From Caldilineales bacterium (lineage in GTDB: Bacteria > Chloroflexota > Anaerolineae > J102): a stretch of 44,895 nt of DNA. Below, piece after piece: positions 4,417 through 37,505 of this stretch (positions are counted from its first letter, which is position 1; each line of letters starts with the position of its first letter). Where the stretch lies: contig JAIBAP010000050.1 of NCBI GenBank assembly GCA_019695115.1, forward strand, positions 1 through 44,895, written 5' to 3'. Below the pieces are notes generated by a model. The model made no database searches. It was not told the origin of the DNA and worked only from the letters and a program-made list of their open reading frames with translations. The position numbers and the translations under genes are program-made.

Positions 4417-5104
4417 ACCCCAGGCGCCCCGGCCGTCGATCCCCGCCCATCCGTTTCCGCGTCTGCCAGACGATGCGACCGAAGTTGACGATATGATGCC
4501 AGGGCTGAATGTGGCTGCTCTCGCCAGCGTAGATGGTGCGGATGGGCGTCCATTCCAGCCGAAAGCCCCGCTCGAGGCAGAGTACGATCATCTCGACCTC
4601 GAACTCGAAACCCTGTTCCCGGCTTGCCAGCGTCGCGGCCATCAGGCGGCGACTGAGCAGGCGGTAGCCGGACTGATTGTCGGCGATGGGCTGGCCCACC
4701 GCCCATGAGAACGACCGCCGGCCCAGGCTGTTGGCGGCGCGGCGGATGAGTGGGATCTGGCTGAAGTCACGGGCGCCAATGATGAGGTCGGCGCCGGTGC
4801 TGGCAAAGCAGGCCAGAAAGGAGGGCAGTTCGGCCGGGTCGTGTTGCCCGTCGGCGTCGAGCGTGATCACGGCCTCGTAGCCTGAAGCGATGGCCCAACG
4901 GAACCCGGCCCGCAGGGCGGCGCCCTTGCCCTGATTGGGAACCTGGCGCAGCACCTCGGCGCCAGCGCGCTCGGCGATGGCGGCCGTGTCATCGCCTGAG
5001 CCGTCGTCCACAACCAGAACAGGCAGATGCAGCCGAGCGCCAGCAATCACCGGGGCGATGCGGGCGGATTCATTGTAGGCGGGGATGAGGACGAGAGGGG
5101 GCAA
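4415..5104 (-). CDS. Family 2 glycosyltransferase (DPM1/polyprenyl-phosphate type)
   Basis: The protein of about 229 residues starts (M)PPLVLIPAYNES, as GT-A fold family 2 enzymes do. VLVVDDGSGDDT gives the nucleotide-binding aspartates and ITLDADGQHDP the DxD metal-binding motif. Such enzymes transfer a sugar from a nucleotide donor to a lipid phosphate or glycan. No ATG or GTG exists near the N-terminus. I chose TTG at 5104 because it yields the family start; another TTG at 5146 would add 14 residues encoded purely by the neighbouring heptamer repeats. No C-terminal membrane span is evident. The acceptor is unknown. Confidence 0.85.
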   Translation of the reverse strand: MPPLVLIPAYNESARIAPVIAGARLHLPVLVVDDGSGDDTAAIAERAGAEVLRQVPNQGKGAALRAGFRWAIASGYEAVITLDADGQHDPAELPSFLACFASTGADLIIGARDFSQIPLIRRAANSLGRRSFSWAVGQPIADNQSGYRLLSRRLMAATLASREQGFEFEVEMIVLCLERGFRLEWTPIRTIYAGESSHIQPWHHIVNFGRIVWQTRKRMGGDRRPGRLG

Positions 5105-5317
5105 GGGGCAGGTCGCAAGTGGCAAGTGGCAAGTGGCAGGTCGCAAGTGGCAGGTGGCAGATCGCAGGTGGCAGATCGCAGGTGGCAGGTCGCAAGTGGC
5201 AAGTGGCAGAGCTTGTCCTGAGTGAAACGAAGGATCGCAAGTGGCAAGTGGCAGGTGGCAGAGCTTGTCCCTTCACTCTGTTCAGGGCAGGCTCTGAGTG
5301 AAACGAAGGATCGCAGG
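5105..5317. repeat. Heptamer array GCARRTS with embedded palindromic units
   Basis: Successive 7-mers GCAAGTG, GCAGGTC, GCAGGTG and GCAGATC fill the block in perfect phase. They are interrupted at about 5208-5234 and 5260-5311 by a unit containing GAGCTTGTCC...GAGTGAAACGAAG that then returns to GATCGCA. The second copy contains TTCACTC and GAGTGAA as complementary arms. The same array plus unit recurs at 22676-22815. The block is upstream of the minus-strand glycosyltransferase and downstream of the ZnuB-type gene. Confidence 0.9.
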
Positions 5318-5334: not shown

Positions 5335-5366
5335 TCGTTGACTGTTGATTGTTGACTGTTGACTGT
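5335..5366. repeat. Heptamer array GTTGACT/GTTGATT
   Basis: Four consecutive 7-mers (GTTGACT, GTTGATT, GTTGACT, GTTGACT) lie just after the stop codon of the minus-strand permease gene. This is a separate family from the adjoining GCARRTS array but has the same unit length. Confidence 0.85.
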
Positions 5367-5368
5367 TC

Positions 5369-6214
5369 TTATCTCCACACCAGGCCCTTGCGGGGGGCGA
5401 AGAGCCAGGCGAGGAGGAAGAAAACGGTCGTCACCAGGACGATGGCCGCGCCCGAAGGCAGCCCGGCATAGAATGAGAGATAGAGGCCAACGACGCCAGA
5501 AAGGGCGCCGATGGCAGCCCCGGTCAGCATCATCGCCGGCAGCCGCCGCGTGAGCAGATAGGCCGTGGCGGCGGGCGTCACGAGCATTGCCATCATCAAG
5601 GCCACACCCACCGTCTGCAAGGCAACGACGGTGGTGATGGCGATGAGCACGAACAGCAGGTAATTGAGGAAGGTGGCCGGGATGCGGAGGGTGGCGGAAA
5701 GGACGGGGTCGAAAGCAACAACCAGAAATTCTTTGTAGAAGGCGATGACCAGGGCCAGAACAAGGGCAGCAAAGAGGCCGGTCAACCACAGATCGGCTGC
5801 GCCGACGCCCAAGACATTGCCAAACAGGAAATGCGCCAGATCGACGGCATAGCTGCGAGTGGTGGAGATGAGAGCAATGCCCAGAGCGAACATGCCGGCA
5901 AAGACGATGCCGATGGCCGTATCCTCGCGCAGCTTGCCGCCTTTGCTGATGGCGCCGATGCCCAAAGAGGTGAGGATGGCGGCGATGAGCGCCCCCCAAA
6001 ACACCGCCGCCCGCTCCCCCGCCCCGGCCAGGTAGCCGGCCGCCACCCCTGGCAAGATGGCATGGGCCACGGCATCGCCAAAGAACGCCATCCCGCGCAG
6101 GACGACATAGCTGCCCACCACCGCGCACACCACCCCCACCAGCATCGCCGCGGCCAGCCCCCGCAGCATGAAGGGATAGGTCAGGGGATCGCTGAAGAAA
6201 TGGATGAGTGTCAT
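5369..6214 (-). CDS. Zinc/manganese ABC transporter permease (ZnuB/MntB family)
   Basis: The 281-residue protein is an ABC-3 family integral membrane protein with about eight hydrophobic spans, for example VGVVCAVVGSYVVLRGMAFF near residue 26 and a GDAVAHAILPGVAAGYLAG stretch typical of the family. It would form the channel of a metal-importing ABC transporter with a periplasmic-type binding protein and an ATPase. Neither partner is adjacent; a matching binding protein is at 26390. Upstream is a near-consensus promoter with a palindromic operator (6233-6274), shared with that binding protein gene. The metal cannot be fixed from sequence; zinc is more likely from the ZnuA-type partner. Confidence 0.88.
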   Translation of the reverse strand: MTLIHFFSDPLTYPFMLRGLAAAMLVGVVCAVVGSYVVLRGMAFFGDAVAHAILPGVAAGYLAGAGERAAVFWGALIAAILTSLGIGAISKGGKLREDTAIGIVFAGMFALGIALISTTRSYAVDLAHFLFGNVLGVGAADLWLTGLFAALVLALVIAFYKEFLVVAFDPVLSATLRIPATFLNYLLFVLIAITTVVALQTVGVALMMAMLVTPAATAYLLTRRLPAMMLTGAAIGALSGVVGLYLSFYAGLPSGAAIVLVTTVFFLLAWLFAPRKGLVWR

Positions 6215-6232
6215 GGGGCAATCGTTCAGAAT

Positions 6233-6274
6233 TGAGATTTTGTCTCATTATAGGACAGGCCAACAAGGTGTCAA
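6233..6274 (-). promoter_or_regulatory. Consensus promoter with overlapping TGAGA-N5-TCTCA operator (permease gene)
   Basis: Read on the minus strand, TTGACA (6274-6269), a 16-base spacer and TATAAT (6252-6247) form a perfect sigma-70-type promoter. The palindrome TGAGA-N5-TCTCA (6233-6247), in the wider context AATTGAGA...TCTCATT, shares the last base of the -10 box. A repressor bound there would block polymerase. The same layout lies before the ZnuA-type gene at 26148-26190. The regulator is probably a Fur-family metalloregulator such as Zur (inference). Confidence 0.85.
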
Positions 6275-6361: not shown

Positions 6362-6859
6362 ATGTTCAGTCGTTCGCACAGAAAAAACCAAATCATCTTC
6401 TTATTGCTTGCAAGCCTGAGTCTGTTGCTGCTCGCCGCTTGCAGCAGCGGCCCTGCCGGCCCACAGATCAAGATCGAAGACGCCTGGGCGCGTTCGTCGC
6501 CGCTGGCGGCGGGCAATGGCTCCGTCTATCTGACGATCGAGAACGGGGGCAACGAGGCCGATGCCTTGATCGGTGTTAGCGCCGCGGTGAGCGAGGCCGC
6601 AGAGATCCATGAAATGATGATGGAAGGCGACGTCATGAAGATGCGTCCGGTTGCGGGCCAGCGGCTGGAAATCCCGGCCGGTGGCAAGGTGGAACTCAAG
6701 CCCGGGGGCCTGCACATCATGCTGCTGGAGCTGAAGGAGAAGTTGGAGATCGGCAAGACGGTCGAGCTCACGCTCAAGTTCGAGAAAACAGGCGAGCAGA
6801 CGGTGACGGCCGAGATCCGCAGCGGCGAAGACGAAGGGATGCAGATGCAGCACAACTGA
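6362..6859 (+). CDS. PCuAC-type periplasmic copper chaperone lipoprotein
   Basis: The 165-residue protein has a lipoprotein signal with lipobox LLAAC (C27). Its cupredoxin-like domain carries the copper(I)-binding pattern H83-x10-M94-x23-H118-x-M120, the H(M)x10Mx21HxM signature of the DUF461/PCuAC family. These proteins hand copper to the CuA or CuB site of cytochrome oxidase outside the membrane. A His residue and several Met at the C-terminus (MQMQHN) may add copper ligands. AGGAG at 6351-6355 is the ribosome-binding site. It is followed 15 bases later by a SURF1 gene, which supports a role in oxidase assembly. Confidence 0.9.
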   Translation: MFSRSHRKNQIIFLLLASLSLLLLAACSSGPAGPQIKIEDAWARSSPLAAGNGSVYLTIENGGNEADALIGVSAAVSEAAEIHEMMMEGDVMKMRPVAGQRLEIPAGGKVELKPGGLHIMLLELKEKLEIGKTVELTLKFEKTGEQTVTAEIRSGEDEGMQMQHN

Positions 6860-6874
6860 CGCTGGCAACCGACC

Positions 6875-7606
6875 ATGTTCCTATTCAAACGTCGTTGGAT
6901 CCTGACCACTCTGCTGGTGGCCGTCGCCGCGGCCGTGATGGTGCGGCTGGGGTTCTGGCAGCTCGCCCGGCTGGCCGGCAAGCGCGCCTACATCGCCCAG
7001 GTCACGGCCGCGCTGGCAGCGGCGCCCCTGGCCCTCACTGGCGCCGAAACCGACCTGCCGGCCGACGAGTACCGCAATCGCCCGGCCACCGCCAAGGGCG
7101 AGTACGATTTCGAGCACGAGGTGCTGCTGAAGAATCAATTCTTCGGCAATCAGCCCGGCTACGATCTGCTGACGCCGTTTCGACTCGAAGGCAGCGAACA
7201 GGCGCTGTTGGTGGATCGGGGCTGGGTGCCGCTGGATGCCGGGGCCGTTGGCGACCTGACGGCGTTCCAGGAAGTGGGGAAACGGCAGATCGAGGGCAGG
7301 ATCGAACCGGCCGACCCGCGCCCCCGCCAGGCCGAGACCATCGCCGGGCAACAGAAGGAATGGTATCGGGTCGATCTCGAAGGGATTCAAGCCCAGACGC
7401 CCTACGCCTTGCTGCCGTTCTACCTGGCTCTGACCCCAAGCGATGACCACACCGGCCTCCCCAACCGCAACCCGCCGGAGATCATCCTGGATGAAGGCCC
7501 GCACCTGGGCTACGCCTTCCAGTGGTTTCTCTTTGCCCTGGTGGTTCCCATCGTCTACGCCGTGCAGGTGCGCAGGCTCGATCGTAAACCGGGCGACGGC
7601 CCCTAG
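6875..7606 (+). CDS. SURF1 family cytochrome c oxidase assembly protein
   Basis: The 243-residue protein shows the SURF1 plan: an N-terminal membrane helix at about residues 9-25, an extracytoplasmic domain, and a C-terminal membrane helix at about 208-228 (GYAFQWFLFALVVPIVYAV). Family motifs include LGFWQLARLAGKR near residue 26, YRNRPATAKGEYD, GYDLLTPFRL and LVDRGWVPLD. SURF1 acts in heme a insertion or handling during oxidase maturation. It is coupled to the upstream copper chaperone and to a Cys-cluster gene that starts 3 bases after its stop. No oxidase subunits are in the window. Confidence 0.92.
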   Translation: MFLFKRRWILTTLLVAVAAAVMVRLGFWQLARLAGKRAYIAQVTAALAAAPLALTGAETDLPADEYRNRPATAKGEYDFEHEVLLKNQFFGNQPGYDLLTPFRLEGSEQALLVDRGWVPLDAGAVGDLTAFQEVGKRQIEGRIEPADPRPRQAETIAGQQKEWYRVDLEGIQAQTPYALLPFYLALTPSDDHTGLPNRNPPEIILDEGPHLGYAFQWFLFALVVPIVYAVQVRRLDRKPGDGP

Positions 7607-8169: not shown

Positions 8170-9789
8170 TCAGTTGTCCTGCTGCCGATAGACCTCGCCT
8201 TGCCATTCGTAGGGGACGGGGTCGAGGCGCCGGAACATGAGTTCGGTCAGACGGTCGGGCGCAGGCGTATCCCAGCCTCCCCAGAGGACGATAGGCGTTC
8301 CCTCCAGGCCGGGCGGCGTCTCGACGCCCAGGCCCTCGCCGCCGCCCGGCCCAAACACGGTGTAAACCCACCCTTCACCATGCTCGGCCAGCCAGCCAGG
8401 CAATGAGGCGGCGTTCAGCCACAGGGGGCGGCCCGGCAGACCAGCTGCGCCCGGTCGCAAGATCAAGAGCGGCTCCAGGTCAATTTCGCCGCCGAGGTTG
8501 GCTTCGCTCACCGGGCGGGCAACTACGCCCAGAGGTTCGCCGGGGGTGGGCGGCGGGGCGGTGTGCAGCCAATCACCCGGCACGGACAGGGTGTAGCGAT
8601 GTCTGGCGCCGTCGTTGCCCTGATGGGTGATGATCACCTGCCAGCCCTCGCCGGTTGGGGTCAAAGCGGCCGGCCCTTCGAGGTAGAACACGTAGTACTC
8701 GGGCAGGGGCAGACCGGTCAGGGCACCGCCGGCCGGCGCATCCAGGCCAAAGCGCCGGGCGAAGTCGGGCGCAGGCGCGCCAGCCGCTGGCGGCGCCAGC
8801 TCGATCTCGCCCACGCGGATGACAGCGGCCATGATCGGGGGGGCAGGGGCGGTTGCAGGGGGAGGGGTGGTCGGCAAGGGCGAGGCAAAGACGGTCGGGG
8901 TGGCCGTCGCTGCTGCGGGCCAGGGGCCGAGCCAGCGGTCGCGCCAGAAGAAGGCCGCCAGCGCCAGCAAGGCCAGGGCCACAGGCAGCCACAGCCAACG
9001 ACGGCGATGGCCGCGGGTCTCGGCCCCAACGTAAGTGACCAGGGCCAGGGTGACATTGTCGGGCGCGCCGCGTTCGAGGGTGGTCGCCAGCAGCAGGTCG
9101 GCGGCCTCGTCGGGGGGATAGGCGGACAGGATGGCAGCCATTTCAGCGGGGGCGAGGACGTTGCTGAGGCCATCGCTGCACAAGAGCAGTTGGTCGCCCG
9201 CTTCGACCGTGAGATGGAAAAGATCAGGGGTGGGGTCGCGATCGGGGCCGAGGGAATGGGTGACGACATTGCGGTAGGGATGGCGGGCGGCTTCGTCGGG
9301 CTTGAGCATCCCCGCCGCTATCTGCTCGGCCACCCAGGAATGGTCCTGGCTGATCTGGGTGAGTTGGCCGCGACGAAAGAGATAGGCGCGGCTGTCACCG
9401 ACATTGGCGACCAGCAGGCTGTGGCCGTGGAGCAAAGCCGCCACCAGGGTCGTGCCCATGCCGGCCTGGCCGCGAACGGCTTCGGCCTCCGCGATGACGC
9501 GGGCGTTGGCCGCGGCGATGGCGGCGCTGAGGGCCTGGTCGGGCGGGAGGTCGGCGCCGGTGTAGTAGGAGCGGAACAGGGTTTCGACCGCGGTCTGGCT
9601 GGCGACTTCGCCGGCGGCGTGGCCGCCCATGCCGTCGGCGACGACGAAGAGATGGCCGCGCCCGGCCAGGTCGTCATCTAGCAGGCCCAGGCGGCCCCGC
9701 CAGTCGAGCACCGTGCTGACGTGATCCTCGTTGATCTCGCGCACGCTGCCGGTGTGGGTGCGGATTTGAGCTTCGTAGAGAGCTGGCAT
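8170..9789 (-). CDS. PP2C-type Ser/Thr phosphatase with C-terminal external domain
   Basis: The 539-residue protein has a PP2C catalytic domain at about 1-255, with REINEDHVS, VVADGMGGHAAGE, NVGDSRAYLF, LCSDGLSN and GAPDNVTLALV giving the metal-binding acidic residues. A membrane helix follows at about 266-284 (WLWLPVALALLALAAFFW), then a Pro/Thr-rich linker and about 220 residues of unrecognised domain outside the cell. It would reverse Ser/Thr kinase action in the cytoplasm and may sense something outside. I chose ATG at 9789, which gives the family start MPALYEAQIRTHTG. A -10 box sits 7 bases before it and there is no Shine-Dalgarno, suggesting a leaderless mRNA. No kinase gene is nearby. 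Confidence 0.9.
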   Translation of the reverse strand: MPALYEAQIRTHTGSVREINEDHVSTVLDWRGRLGLLDDDLAGRGHLFVVADGMGGHAAGEVASQTAVETLFRSYYTGADLPPDQALSAAIAAANARVIAEAEAVRGQAGMGTTLVAALLHGHSLLVANVGDSRAYLFRRGQLTQISQDHSWVAEQIAAGMLKPDEAARHPYRNVVTHSLGPDRDPTPDLFHLTVEAGDQLLLCSDGLSNVLAPAEMAAILSAYPPDEAADLLLATTLERGAPDNVTLALVTYVGAETRGHRRRWLWLPVALALLALAAFFWRDRWLGPWPAAATATPTVFASPLPTTPPPATAPAPPIMAAVIRVGEIELAPPAAGAPAPDFARRFGLDAPAGGALTGLPLPEYYVFYLEGPAALTPTGEGWQVIITHQGNDGARHRYTLSVPGDWLHTAPPPTPGEPLGVVARPVSEANLGGEIDLEPLLILRPGAAGLPGRPLWLNAASLPGWLAEHGEGWVYTVFGPGGGEGLGVETPPGLEGTPIVLWGGWDTPAPDRLTELMFRRLDPVPYEWQGEVYRQQDN

Positions 9790-11103: not shown

Positions 11104-11146
11104 ACCCACGCAACACGCAACACGCAACACGCAACACGGAACCCGA
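11104..11146. repeat. Heptamer array CACGCAA
   Basis: Four copies of the 7-mer AACACGC, then the GGAACCC-type 7-mers, run up to 19 bases before the response regulator start codon. The array replaces any visible Shine-Dalgarno or promoter close to that gene. Confidence 0.88.
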
Positions 11147-18090: not shown

Positions 18091-18222
18091 TGGTTAGTGG
18101 GGGTTGGTTATTGGAGATTGGGGATTGGTTATTGGAGATTGGAGATTGGGGATTGGAGATTGGGGATTGGAGATTGGAGATTGGGGATTGGGGATTGGGG
18201 ATTGGAGATTGGAGATTGGGGA
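18091..18222. repeat. Heptamer array GATTGGN, about 17 units
   Basis: The 7-mers GATTGGG, GATTGGA, GATTGGT and TATTGGA follow each other without a phase break for about 125 bases. It is the longest clean array in the window. It fills the whole gap between the MFS gene and the DapA-family gene on the minus strand. All three frames are open through it because seven is not a multiple of three. Confidence 0.95.
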
Positions 18223-22675: not shown

Positions 22676-22985
22676 AGTTGGCAGGTGGCAGAGCTTGTCC
22701 TGAGTGAAACGAAGGATCGCAGGTGGCAGGTGGCAGGTCGCAAGTCGCAGGTGGCAAGTCGCAGGTGGCAGGTCGCAGGTGGCAGGTCGCAAGTCGCAAG
22801 TCGCAGGTGGCAGGCGCTCACGCCTCACGCCTCACGCTTCACGCCTCACGCTTCACGCTTCACGCCTCACGCTTCACGCCTCACGCCTCACGCTTCACGC
22901 CTCACGCCTCACGCTTCACGCTTCACACCTCACGCTTCACGCCTCACGTTTCACGCCTCACGGCACCCGGAACACGGAACACACA
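22676..22985. repeat. Compound heptamer arrays (GCARRTS, then TCACGCY)
   Basis: The first part (22676-22815) repeats the GCAGGTG/GCAAGTC array and the embedded GAGCTTGTCC...GAAACGAAG unit found at 5105-5317. The second part (22815-22955) is about 20 uninterrupted 7-mers TCACGCC or TCACGCT, ending in TCACACC and TCACGTT variants. It finishes with GGAACAC units just before the amidase ATG. No promoter or gene is supported inside. Confidence 0.95.
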
Positions 22986-26147: not shown

Positions 26148-26190
26148 TTGACAATTGGCAGTTCGCAGCGATAATTGAGACATTATCTCA
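26148..26190 (+). promoter_or_regulatory. Promoter with adjoining TGAGA-N5-TCTCA operator (ZnuA-type gene)
   Basis: TTGACA (26148-26153), a 16-base spacer, GATAAT (26170-26175), then the palindrome TGAGACATTATCTCA (26176-26190). The wider context AATTGAGA...TCTCATTTA matches the permease operator at 6230-6252, and the spacer length is identical. It lies 200 bases before the ATG at 26390, with the heptamer array in the leader between. Confidence 0.85.
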
Positions 26191-26233
26191 TTTATGGATG
26201 GCTAGATCGAGAAATGATACTCGGTCATGAAAC

Positions 26234-26345
26234 GTGATGCGTGTTGCGTGATGCGTGTTGCGTGTTGCGTGATGCGTGTTGCGTGTTGCGTGATGCGTGA
26301 AAATCGCCGACGTTTTCTCACGGTTCACGCTTCACGGTTCACGAC
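26234..26345. repeat. Heptamer array GTGATGC/GTGTTGC and inverted TTCACGN units
   Basis: Nine 7-mers GTGATGC or GTGTTGC (26234-26299) are the reverse complement of the CACGCAT family. After a spacer AAAATCGCCGACGTTTT (26300-26316), TTCACGC-type units appear in the other orientation (26322-26345), so the leader can fold into a long hairpin. All of it lies in the 5' untranslated region of the ZnuA-type gene. Confidence 0.93.
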
Positions 26346-26389: not shown

Positions 26390-27319
26390 ATGCCTCGAAC
26401 ACCCTACTTCCGACCTCTACTCATCCTTCTGGCCTTGCTCTTGGCCGCGTGCTCTGGCCCCGCCCCGGCAGGCGACCAGGCGCCGGACAGATTGAATGTC
26501 GTTGCCACCACCACCCTCGTCGGCGATGTCGTGCGCGTCATCGGCGGCGAGGCCATCGCTTTGGACGTTCTGCTGCCGGTAGGGGCCGAACCGCACGGCT
26601 ACCAGCCTTCACCGCAAGACTTGGCGGAGTTGTCGCAGGCCGACCTGGTCTTCGTCAACGGGCTGGGGTTGGAAGAAGCGCTGATGCCCACGCTGGCAAG
26701 CGCCGTCGCCCACGAGAAGATCGTTGCGGTCTCGGACAGCGTCGAAGCCATCGAACTGGCCGGGGGAGAAGACGAGGGAGAGCACGAGCATGGCCTCGAT
26801 CCGCACGCCTGGACCGACCCAAACAATGTGATGGTCTGGACGGACAACATCGTGCGGGCGCTCAGCGCCGCCAACCCGGCGCAAAGGGACGGTTACGAGT
26901 CACGCGCCACCGCCTACCGGCAGCAGTTGACCGCGCTCGATGCCTGGATCCGCCAGCAGGTGGCGCAGATCCCGGAACGCAAGCGCAAACTCGTCACAGA
27001 CCATGCCGTCTTTGGCTACTTTGCCCGCCGTTACGGGCTGGAACAGGTTGGCGCCGTCATCCCCGGCTTCAGCGCCCTGGCCGAGCCTTCGGCCCAAGAG
27101 CTGGCCGCGCTGGAAGACGCCATTCGCGGCCTCGGCGTCGGGGCGATCTTCGTGGGCAATACCGTCAATCCCAGCCTGGCTGAACGCGTGGCCAAAGACG
27201 CCAACACCCGACTGCTGTTCATCTACAGCGATTCGCTCAGCGATGCTGACGGGCCGGCCGCCACCTATCTGGATTTCATGCGGTACAACGTCGGCGTCTT
27301 CGTCGACGGTCTCCGCTAG
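26390..27319 (+). CDS. ZnuA-type metal-binding lipoprotein of an ABC transporter
   Basis: The 309-residue protein has lipobox LLAAC (C21) and the cluster A-I (zinc/manganese) binding-protein fold. Likely metal ligands are H69 (AEPHGYQPSP), H139 (LDPHAW) and H205 (TDHAVFGYFARRYG), with a late acidic residue near SDSLSDADG. A short acidic/His insert (GEDEGEHEHG) resembles the reduced His-rich loop of ZnuA. It captures zinc (or manganese) for import. No permease or ATPase is adjacent; a ZnuB-type permease with the same operator is at 5369-6214. AAGCA before ATG is not a strong ribosome-binding site. Confidence 0.9.
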   Translation: MPRTPYFRPLLILLALLLAACSGPAPAGDQAPDRLNVVATTTLVGDVVRVIGGEAIALDVLLPVGAEPHGYQPSPQDLAELSQADLVFVNGLGLEEALMPTLASAVAHEKIVAVSDSVEAIELAGGEDEGEHEHGLDPHAWTDPNNVMVWTDNIVRALSAANPAQRDGYESRATAYRQQLTALDAWIRQQVAQIPERKRKLVTDHAVFGYFARRYGLEQVGAVIPGFSALAEPSAQELAALEDAIRGLGVGAIFVGNTVNPSLAERVAKDANTRLLFIYSDSLSDADGPAATYLDFMRYNVGVFVDGLR

Positions 27320-28286: not shown

Positions 28287-28427
28287 GTGAAGCGTGACAA
28301 AACGTCGGCGATTCCCACGCCCCACGCCTCACATTTCACGCCTCACGCCCCGCGCCCCACGCCTCACATTTCACGCCTCACGCCCCGCGCCCCACGCCTC
28401 ACGTTTCACGCCTCACGTTTCACGCCT
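28287..28427. repeat. Heptamer array CACGCCT/CACATTT with 35-bp higher order
   Basis: From 28316 the 7-mers CACGCCT, CACATTT, CACGCCT, CACGCCC, CGCGCCC repeat as a 35-base block twice, then continue with CACGTTT variants. The 5' end (28287-28320) is an inverted, 30/34 match to 26295-26328. The array runs into the last two codons of the Uma2 gene. Confidence 0.92.
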
Positions 28428-28995
28428 CCATCTCGACCTGATAATAGATCTCGTTGAGCGGGATTTGGCAGTCGATGGATTCCAGGTGCAGCACATCAGC
28501 GAGCGAACGCAGGTCGCCGATCACCCATAGATCACCCCGGCGCCGATAATGCTCGACCAGCACCCTGTCCTGGGCGATCAGCACGTATTCCCGCAACGAT
28601 GCCAGCCGCCGGTATTGGGAGAACTTCTCACCGCGGTCGTAGGCCTCGGTGGAGGGCGACAGCACCTCGATCAGGACGGTCGGGTTGAGGAGCGTATCGC
28701 CCTGGATGTCCTCGAAGACCGGCTGGCCACAAACCACGCTGGCATCCGGGTAGGTGTAGAGTCCCGTGGCGCCCACACGCACACGCATTTCCGCCACATA
28801 GACTTCGCAAGGGCGACCGCGTAGTTGGCGGCGCAGTTCGCTGGCCGCGTTGAGCGTGATCAGATTGTGCTTGCGGCTGGCCCCGGCCATGGCGTAGATC
28901 TCGCCGTCGAAGAATTCACTCTTCGTCGCCGCCTGCCGTTCCAGGGTCAGATATTCCTGGGGGGTGAAGACTCGTTTGAAAGCTCGCAGGGCCAT
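28420..28995 (-). CDS. Uma2 family (DUF820) putative endonuclease
   Basis: The 191-residue protein shows the PD-(D/E)xK plan of Uma2: EFFDGEIYAMAG near residue 27, VYVAEMRVRV, YPDASVVCG (catalytic Asp) and TVLIEVLSPSTEAYDRGEKFSQYRRL with the E-x-K-like core. This family is expanded in cyanobacteria and Chloroflexota; its cellular role is unsettled. Its last two codons and TGA stop lie inside the heptamer array, so the C-terminus has been set by the repeat. A minus-strand TAGAAT sits 6 bases before the ATG with no Shine-Dalgarno. It is downstream of the helicase gene on the same strand, 15 bases away. Confidence 0.88.
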   Translation of the reverse strand: MALRAFKRVFTPQEYLTLERQAATKSEFFDGEIYAMAGASRKHNLITLNAASELRRQLRGRPCEVYVAEMRVRVGATGLYTYPDASVVCGQPVFEDIQGDTLLNPTVLIEVLSPSTEAYDRGEKFSQYRRLASLREYVLIAQDRVLVEHYRRRGDLWVIGDLRSLADVLHLESIDCQIPLNEIYYQVEMEA

Positions 28996-37300: not shown

Positions 37301-37505
37301 ATTCGCACGTAGGCGTGCTCACTCCTCACGATTCACGGAACCCGGAACACGGAACACGTTTCACGCATTCGCACGTAGGCGTGCTCACCCCTCACGCTTC
37401 ACGGAACACGCAACACGGAACACGGAACCCGCAACACGGAACCCGTTTCACGCATTCGCACGTAGGCGCGCTCATTCCTCACGCTTCACGTTTCACGCCT
37501 CACTT
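37301..37505. repeat. Palindromic 20-mers and heptamers in nth leader
   Basis: ATTCGCACGTAGGCGTGCTC occurs at 37301-37320, 37367-37386 and (one change) 37454-37473. It is the same core as in the 43-bp repeats at 10981. The spaces between are filled with TCACGCT, GGAACAC and GGAACCC heptamers. Confidence 0.92.

Follow-up and report, generated by a model that had tools for sequence, protein, structure and literature searches.

Zur regulons are well known, and three described systems come closest to the one presented here. In the actinobacterial Zur regulon (Corynebacterium, Mycobacterium, Streptomyces) a Fur-family Zur represses znuABC via a 7-1-7 palindrome, the arrangement that we propose below, and the actinobacterial TGAAAATGATTTTCA type of site has a counterpart in other Anaerolineae of our comparison, which carry TGAAAA-N3-TTTTCA before zur-znuACB. 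In E. coli, a box overlapping the -10 region of PznuABC controls the znu genes and the recognition helix of Zur bears a Tyr-Arg pair (PMC4219657); both features have likenesses here. The third system is AztABC of Paracoccus, whose NCBIfam models are the best matches of our permease and binding protein and also match the ATPase strongly. Zur is among the widespread regulators of the RegPrecise database, whose Chloroflexi collection comprises 30 transcription-factor regulogs from five Chloroflexi genomes (PMC3840689). A TGAGA Zur box in Chloroflexi was not found in the literature searched; the RegPrecise Chloroflexi collection may include a Zur box.

We analyzed a stretch of 44,895 nucleotides (the window) from a Caldilineales bacterium, in which palindromes of the form TGAGA-N5-TCTCA lie at the promoters of a znuB-like and a znuA-like gene. 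Our preferred reading, to which we assign a probability of roughly 0.87 based on comparative sequence evidence, is that the palindromes are Zur boxes of one zinc-uptake regulon, in which a Zur-type repressor encoded on contig C12 blocks the promoters of three loci. The zinc-loaded dimer of this repressor would bind the 15-bp site, which extends from the -10 box onward and covers the expected transcription start, so that the bound dimer would keep RNA polymerase off; blocking polymerase access is the usual mode of Zur (PMC6103462). When zinc is low the repressor would let go, and znuA, znuB, and zur-znuC, which contributes the ATPase, would be expressed together from the three loci.

Operators, promoters, and genes in the window

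5369-6214, minus strand: znuB-like ABC-3 metal permease, 281 aa (Pfam PF00950, E=1.7e-75)
6233-6247, no strand: operator 1, TGAGATTTTGTCTCA, a 7-1-7 palindrome; with flanks, AATTGAGA-N5-TCTCATT
6247-6274, minus strand: promoter of the znuB-like gene; -35 TTGACA (6269-6274), 16-bp spacer, -10 TATAAT (6247-6252)
26148-26175, plus strand: promoter of the znuA-like gene; -35 TTGACA (26148-26153), 16-bp spacer, -10 GATAAT (26170-26175)
26176-26190, no strand: operator 2, TGAGACATTATCTCA; with flanks, AATTGAGA-N5-TCTCATT
26390-27319, plus strand: znuA-like metal-binding lipoprotein, 309 aa (Pfam PF01297, E=1.9e-84)

The two operators are the sole exact TGAGA-N5-TCTCA matches in the window, where 0.63 would be expected with up to one mismatch. 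The original prediction had described both promoters as having TTGACA, a 16-bp spacer and a -10 box, and this is correct, with 12/12 positions of the sigma-70 consensus matched at znuB and 11/12 at znuA. It had also placed the operators directly adjoining the -10 boxes, which is so at znuA, where the -10 box abuts operator 2; at znuB the final T of the -10 box instead doubles as the first T of TGAGA, a one-base overlap that puts the two geometries 1 bp apart. The common flanks that it reported, AATTGAGA and TCTCATT, are real on the plus strand, but since the znuB promoter is on the minus strand they are common by way of the palindrome and not in promoter orientation.

The permease and the binding protein had been thought to lack adjacent partners, and this was borne out: each is present in a single copy in the genome, and the neighbors of the two loci (a glycosyltransferase, PCuAC, an aminotransferase, and EamA) include no transporter partner. 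The PCuAC copper-chaperone gene (6362-6859) is divergent from znuB and is followed by a gene (6875-7606) that reads by eye as SURF1-like; in a related genome, G003 (L125), a PCuAC-like gene is likewise close to znuB, also as judged by eye.

Eleven tandem arrays with a common 7-bp period and differing unit sequences are also present in the window. A large part of the 200-bp leader from the znuA operator to the start codon consists of one of them, and another comes after znuB.

2084-2137, 2942-2999, 5100-5208, 5337-5367, 11107-11142, 18104-18219: 7-bp-period tandem arrays
22717-22814, 22817-22962, 26233-26299, 28316-28428, 37400-37442: 7-bp-period tandem arrays, continued

Genome-wide distribution of the site and a third locus

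A scan of the genome (5,986,056 bases in 135 contigs, 6.0 Mb) returned five exact matches to TGAGA-N5-TCTCA against ~1.8 expected from composition, so that the pattern by itself shows little enrichment. Chance does not account, however, for the location of three of the five, which stand at the promoters of the single znuA, the single znuB, and a zur-znuC operon, nor for their AT-rich flanks. The third locus comprises:

C12:84182-84604, minus strand: candidate zur, a Fur-family gene (PF01475), first gene of the zur-znuC operon
C12:84624-84638: third operator, 19 bp upstream of the GTG start (84604) of the Fur-family gene

The gene next downstream of the Fur-family gene encodes a ZnuC-type ATPase. 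The promoter of the operon is TTGCCG-17-TACAAT, with the operator directly 3′ of the TACAAT box, and at all three loci the operator begins where the -10 box ends. As the genome has one ABC-3 permease, one ZnuA-type protein, and one close match for the ATPase, the set for a cluster A-I metal ABC importer (ZnuABC/AztABC) is complete with one of each, and the znu system of this genome is split over three loci tied by one operator. That matches would cluster upstream of genes for metal transport and of a znuC-type ATPase had been foreseen, and neither a large number of random matches inside coding regions nor a lack of enrichment at metal genes, the two outcomes named beforehand as contrary, occurred.

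The remaining two exact matches, C3:158208 and C44:19811, were rejected as operators, having matrix scores (see below) of 13.3 and <5 bits and GC-richer flanks. The match at C3:158208 (L010, ~8180-8230) is nested in a longer TAGTTCYGYGTGARA pattern that occurs twice in direct and once in inverted orientation, and is probably the site of another regulator or a repeat. Further members of the regulon were sought among the 36 one-mismatch matches in the genome beyond the five exact ones; 35 regions were retrieved, and, C40:48918 aside, none of them scored at least 14 bits. A looser AT-flanked pattern, with up to one mismatch allowed, recovered the three known sites and three poor ones, and its reversed control gave five.

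Conservation in related genomes

Seven other genomes have the same or a near-identical site ahead of znu or zur genes:

G002, a relative within the same genus: sites before znuA and znuB; none before its zur-znuC
G003: perfect operators before znuA and znuB (L098, L039)
G004 and G005: two boxes before the znuA-znuB-zur cluster
G033: site before zur-znuA-znuC-znuB
G037: site before znuB; two within the znuA/zur divergent region
G038: two box pairs before zur-znuA-znuC-znuB

A weight matrix built from the sites of the relatives alone, with this genome left out, ranked the znuA, znuB, and zur-znuC sites first at 41.7, 31.8, and 28.5 bits, respectively; the next best score within 223 kb of this genome was 15.3 bits and the maximum in 3 Mb of random sequence 20.4 bits. 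The genomes that bear the operator are those with the top-scoring homologs of the C12 protein, with the exception of G003, in which a close zur or znuC was not found in a fragmented assembly (91% complete, ~400 contigs). The znuA site of G003 has the same gene neighborhood by eye, including the aminotransferase on its other side. Conversely, zur and the operator are jointly absent from the sister species G001 (98% complete), in which znuA, znuB, and znuC are kept and neither a close zur homolog nor operator sites were found. With the third site preceding a Fur-family gene and znuC, and the site conserved before the znu and zur genes of relatives, the predicted single Zur/Fur-type regulon is well supported.

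The C12 repressor would presumably also control its own gene, and given that G002 has no site before its zur-znuC, such autoregulation would not be general. The operator also follows directly on the -10 box in distant relatives that have the other box type, as in G028 (TATAAT-TGAAAATGGATTTCA). In G220, a homolog of the C12 protein has a perfect TGAGACTTAGTCTCA site and is followed by a gene assigned by eye to the ZIP-type transporters. Paired 15-bp boxes with an exact 16-bp spacing, that is with 1 bp between them, occur at L115 2568-2598, L116 2549-2579, and L067 1138-1168 and 1431-1461, and the pairs in G004, G005, and G038 suggest binding of two dimers.

The candidate repressor

The C12 protein has a Fur-family domain (PF01475, 81.5 bits vs. 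a cut-off of 23.1) and the structural Cys4 zinc site in the form of two CxxC pairs, C95/C98 and C135/C138. Cys107, His127, and Glu130 are common in our alignment to most of the znu-linked homologs and largely missing in other Fur paralogs, and these residues are a candidate for the sensory zinc site (N2OS) that has a cysteine ligand and lies between the domains. The sensory sites of Zur proteins are described as containing a cysteine (PMC6103462), so the presence of Cys107 would fit zinc sensing. A palindrome of the Zur-box kind stands at the promoters of the predicted zinc-uptake genes. With the NCBIfam model of E. coli-type Zur, PRK11639, the C12 protein scored 43.7 bits, far under the cut-off of 167, and it was matched better by Fur/PerR models.

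The genome has four Fur-family genes, on contigs C12, C24, C31, and C4. We also observed that Fur/PerR-like paralogs (L070-L073, L075, L078, L015) have sites of the TTAGAA-N3-TTCTAA type before their own genes. These sites, one of which in this genome lies beside a P-type ATPase gene, suggest a second, separate regulon.

Which metal and which regulator

Zinc is favored over manganese as the metal on the basis of the predicted proteins. The best NCBIfam match of the ZnuA-like protein is zinc AztC, at 279 bits against a cut-off of 350, and the AztA, AztB, and AztC scores are all under their curated cut-offs (219.5/220, 227/280, and 279/350 bits, respectively). The protein has the zinc-type set of three His ligands: the first lies in EPHGYQ, H139 and H205 are invariant among eight aligned proteins, and the fourth ligand position is variable. 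A system in which the same operator and regulator serve manganese import, the repressor being a Mur-like member of the Fur family, seems to us improbable. The ZnuA-like protein does match Deinococcus MntC (245 bits) and many manganese-binding proteins, and the best NCBIfam match of the ATPase is the manganese MntA model. However, AztC scores higher than MntC, and the invariant third ligand H205 is Glu in the aligned manganese-binding sequences of the PsaA type. Moreover, an extra Cys, as is typical of zinc sensors, is conserved in the repressor clade, and the homolog in G220 precedes the ZIP-like gene.

The sites might instead belong to a different regulator, either one of the Fur paralogs on C24, C31, and C4 or a metal regulator outside the Fur family. 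We consider the likelihood of this to be slight: there are indeed four Fur-family genes and the operators of Fur paralogs look alike, but only the C12 gene has both the site and the linkage to znuC, the C4 paralog has a TTAGAA-N3-TTCTAA site of its own, and, apart from G003, the operator tracks the top-scoring C12 homologs. That the palindromes are products of chance, or structural elements such as a terminator or repeat, is barely credible, even with the bare 10-base pattern expected about twice per genome, as the sites occur at three of three znu promoters, are conserved across families, and have no terminator-like features. Regulation of zinc uptake by the C12 Zur-type repressor thus remains the reading that we prefer.

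Operator lettering and residue 55 of the repressor

Across the phylum, lineages differ in the half-site, some having TGAGA or TGATA and others TGAAA. We compared this lettering with residue 55 in 43 Fur-family proteins whose own genes are preceded by a site. This residue opens the recognition helix and lies four positions ahead of the conserved Arg59, which corresponds by eye to Arg65 of E. coli Zur, a residue that contacts a purine (PMC4219657). It is Ala in 28 of the proteins and Val or Thr in 15; Met55 occurs in G004 and G005, in which the sites precede znuA. Among the Val/Thr55 proteins, both halves carry A as their fourth base in 14 of 15 (the remaining one has T/A), and 25 of the 28 Ala55 proteins have G or T only, the exceptions being L200 (A/A, with Lys54), L067 (A/G), and L213 (C/G). 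The correspondence holds in both halves for 39 of the 43 proteins. The tree requires three changes in residue class and five in operator class, which leaves only about two switches that are both independent and concordant. We therefore advance only tentatively, and with more doubt than confidence, the idea that residue 55 largely sets the Zur operator of Chloroflexota, with Ala or Met going together with a fourth base of G or T (TGAGA/TGATA) and Val or Thr with A (TGAAA). An earlier candidate, Arg54 as the reader of the operator G, held in the first 16 Zur proteins and was refuted by Leu54 proteins whose sites read TTAGAA and by one Arg54 protein whose site reads TGAAA.

Were the idea correct, residue 55 would be a simple specificity switch in the Fur family. 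To our knowledge, the choice between near-identical Fur-family boxes has so far been studied on few proteins, and the phylum-wide pairs of repressor and operator are natural data on how these proteins make it.

Comparison with known systems

The analysis provides putative assignments of a repressor, its operator, and a complete zinc-uptake transporter in a lineage known largely through metagenomics, and the importer is a split one, tied together by a common operator rather than by an operon. Relative to the actinobacterial Zur regulon, the half-site is TGAGA and not TGAAA, the genes are at three split loci, and znuC is linked to zur. Whereas E. coli has a long box that takes two dimers (PMC4219657), the box here is 15 bp, the size for a single dimer, although abutting double boxes are present in G004, G005, and G038; the C12 protein also differs in its very low score on the E. 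coli Zur model. The difference from AztABC is that all three proteins fall short of the curated cut-offs and that the genes here lie outside one operon. The type of system is thus ordinary, and the lettering of its operator is a local variant.
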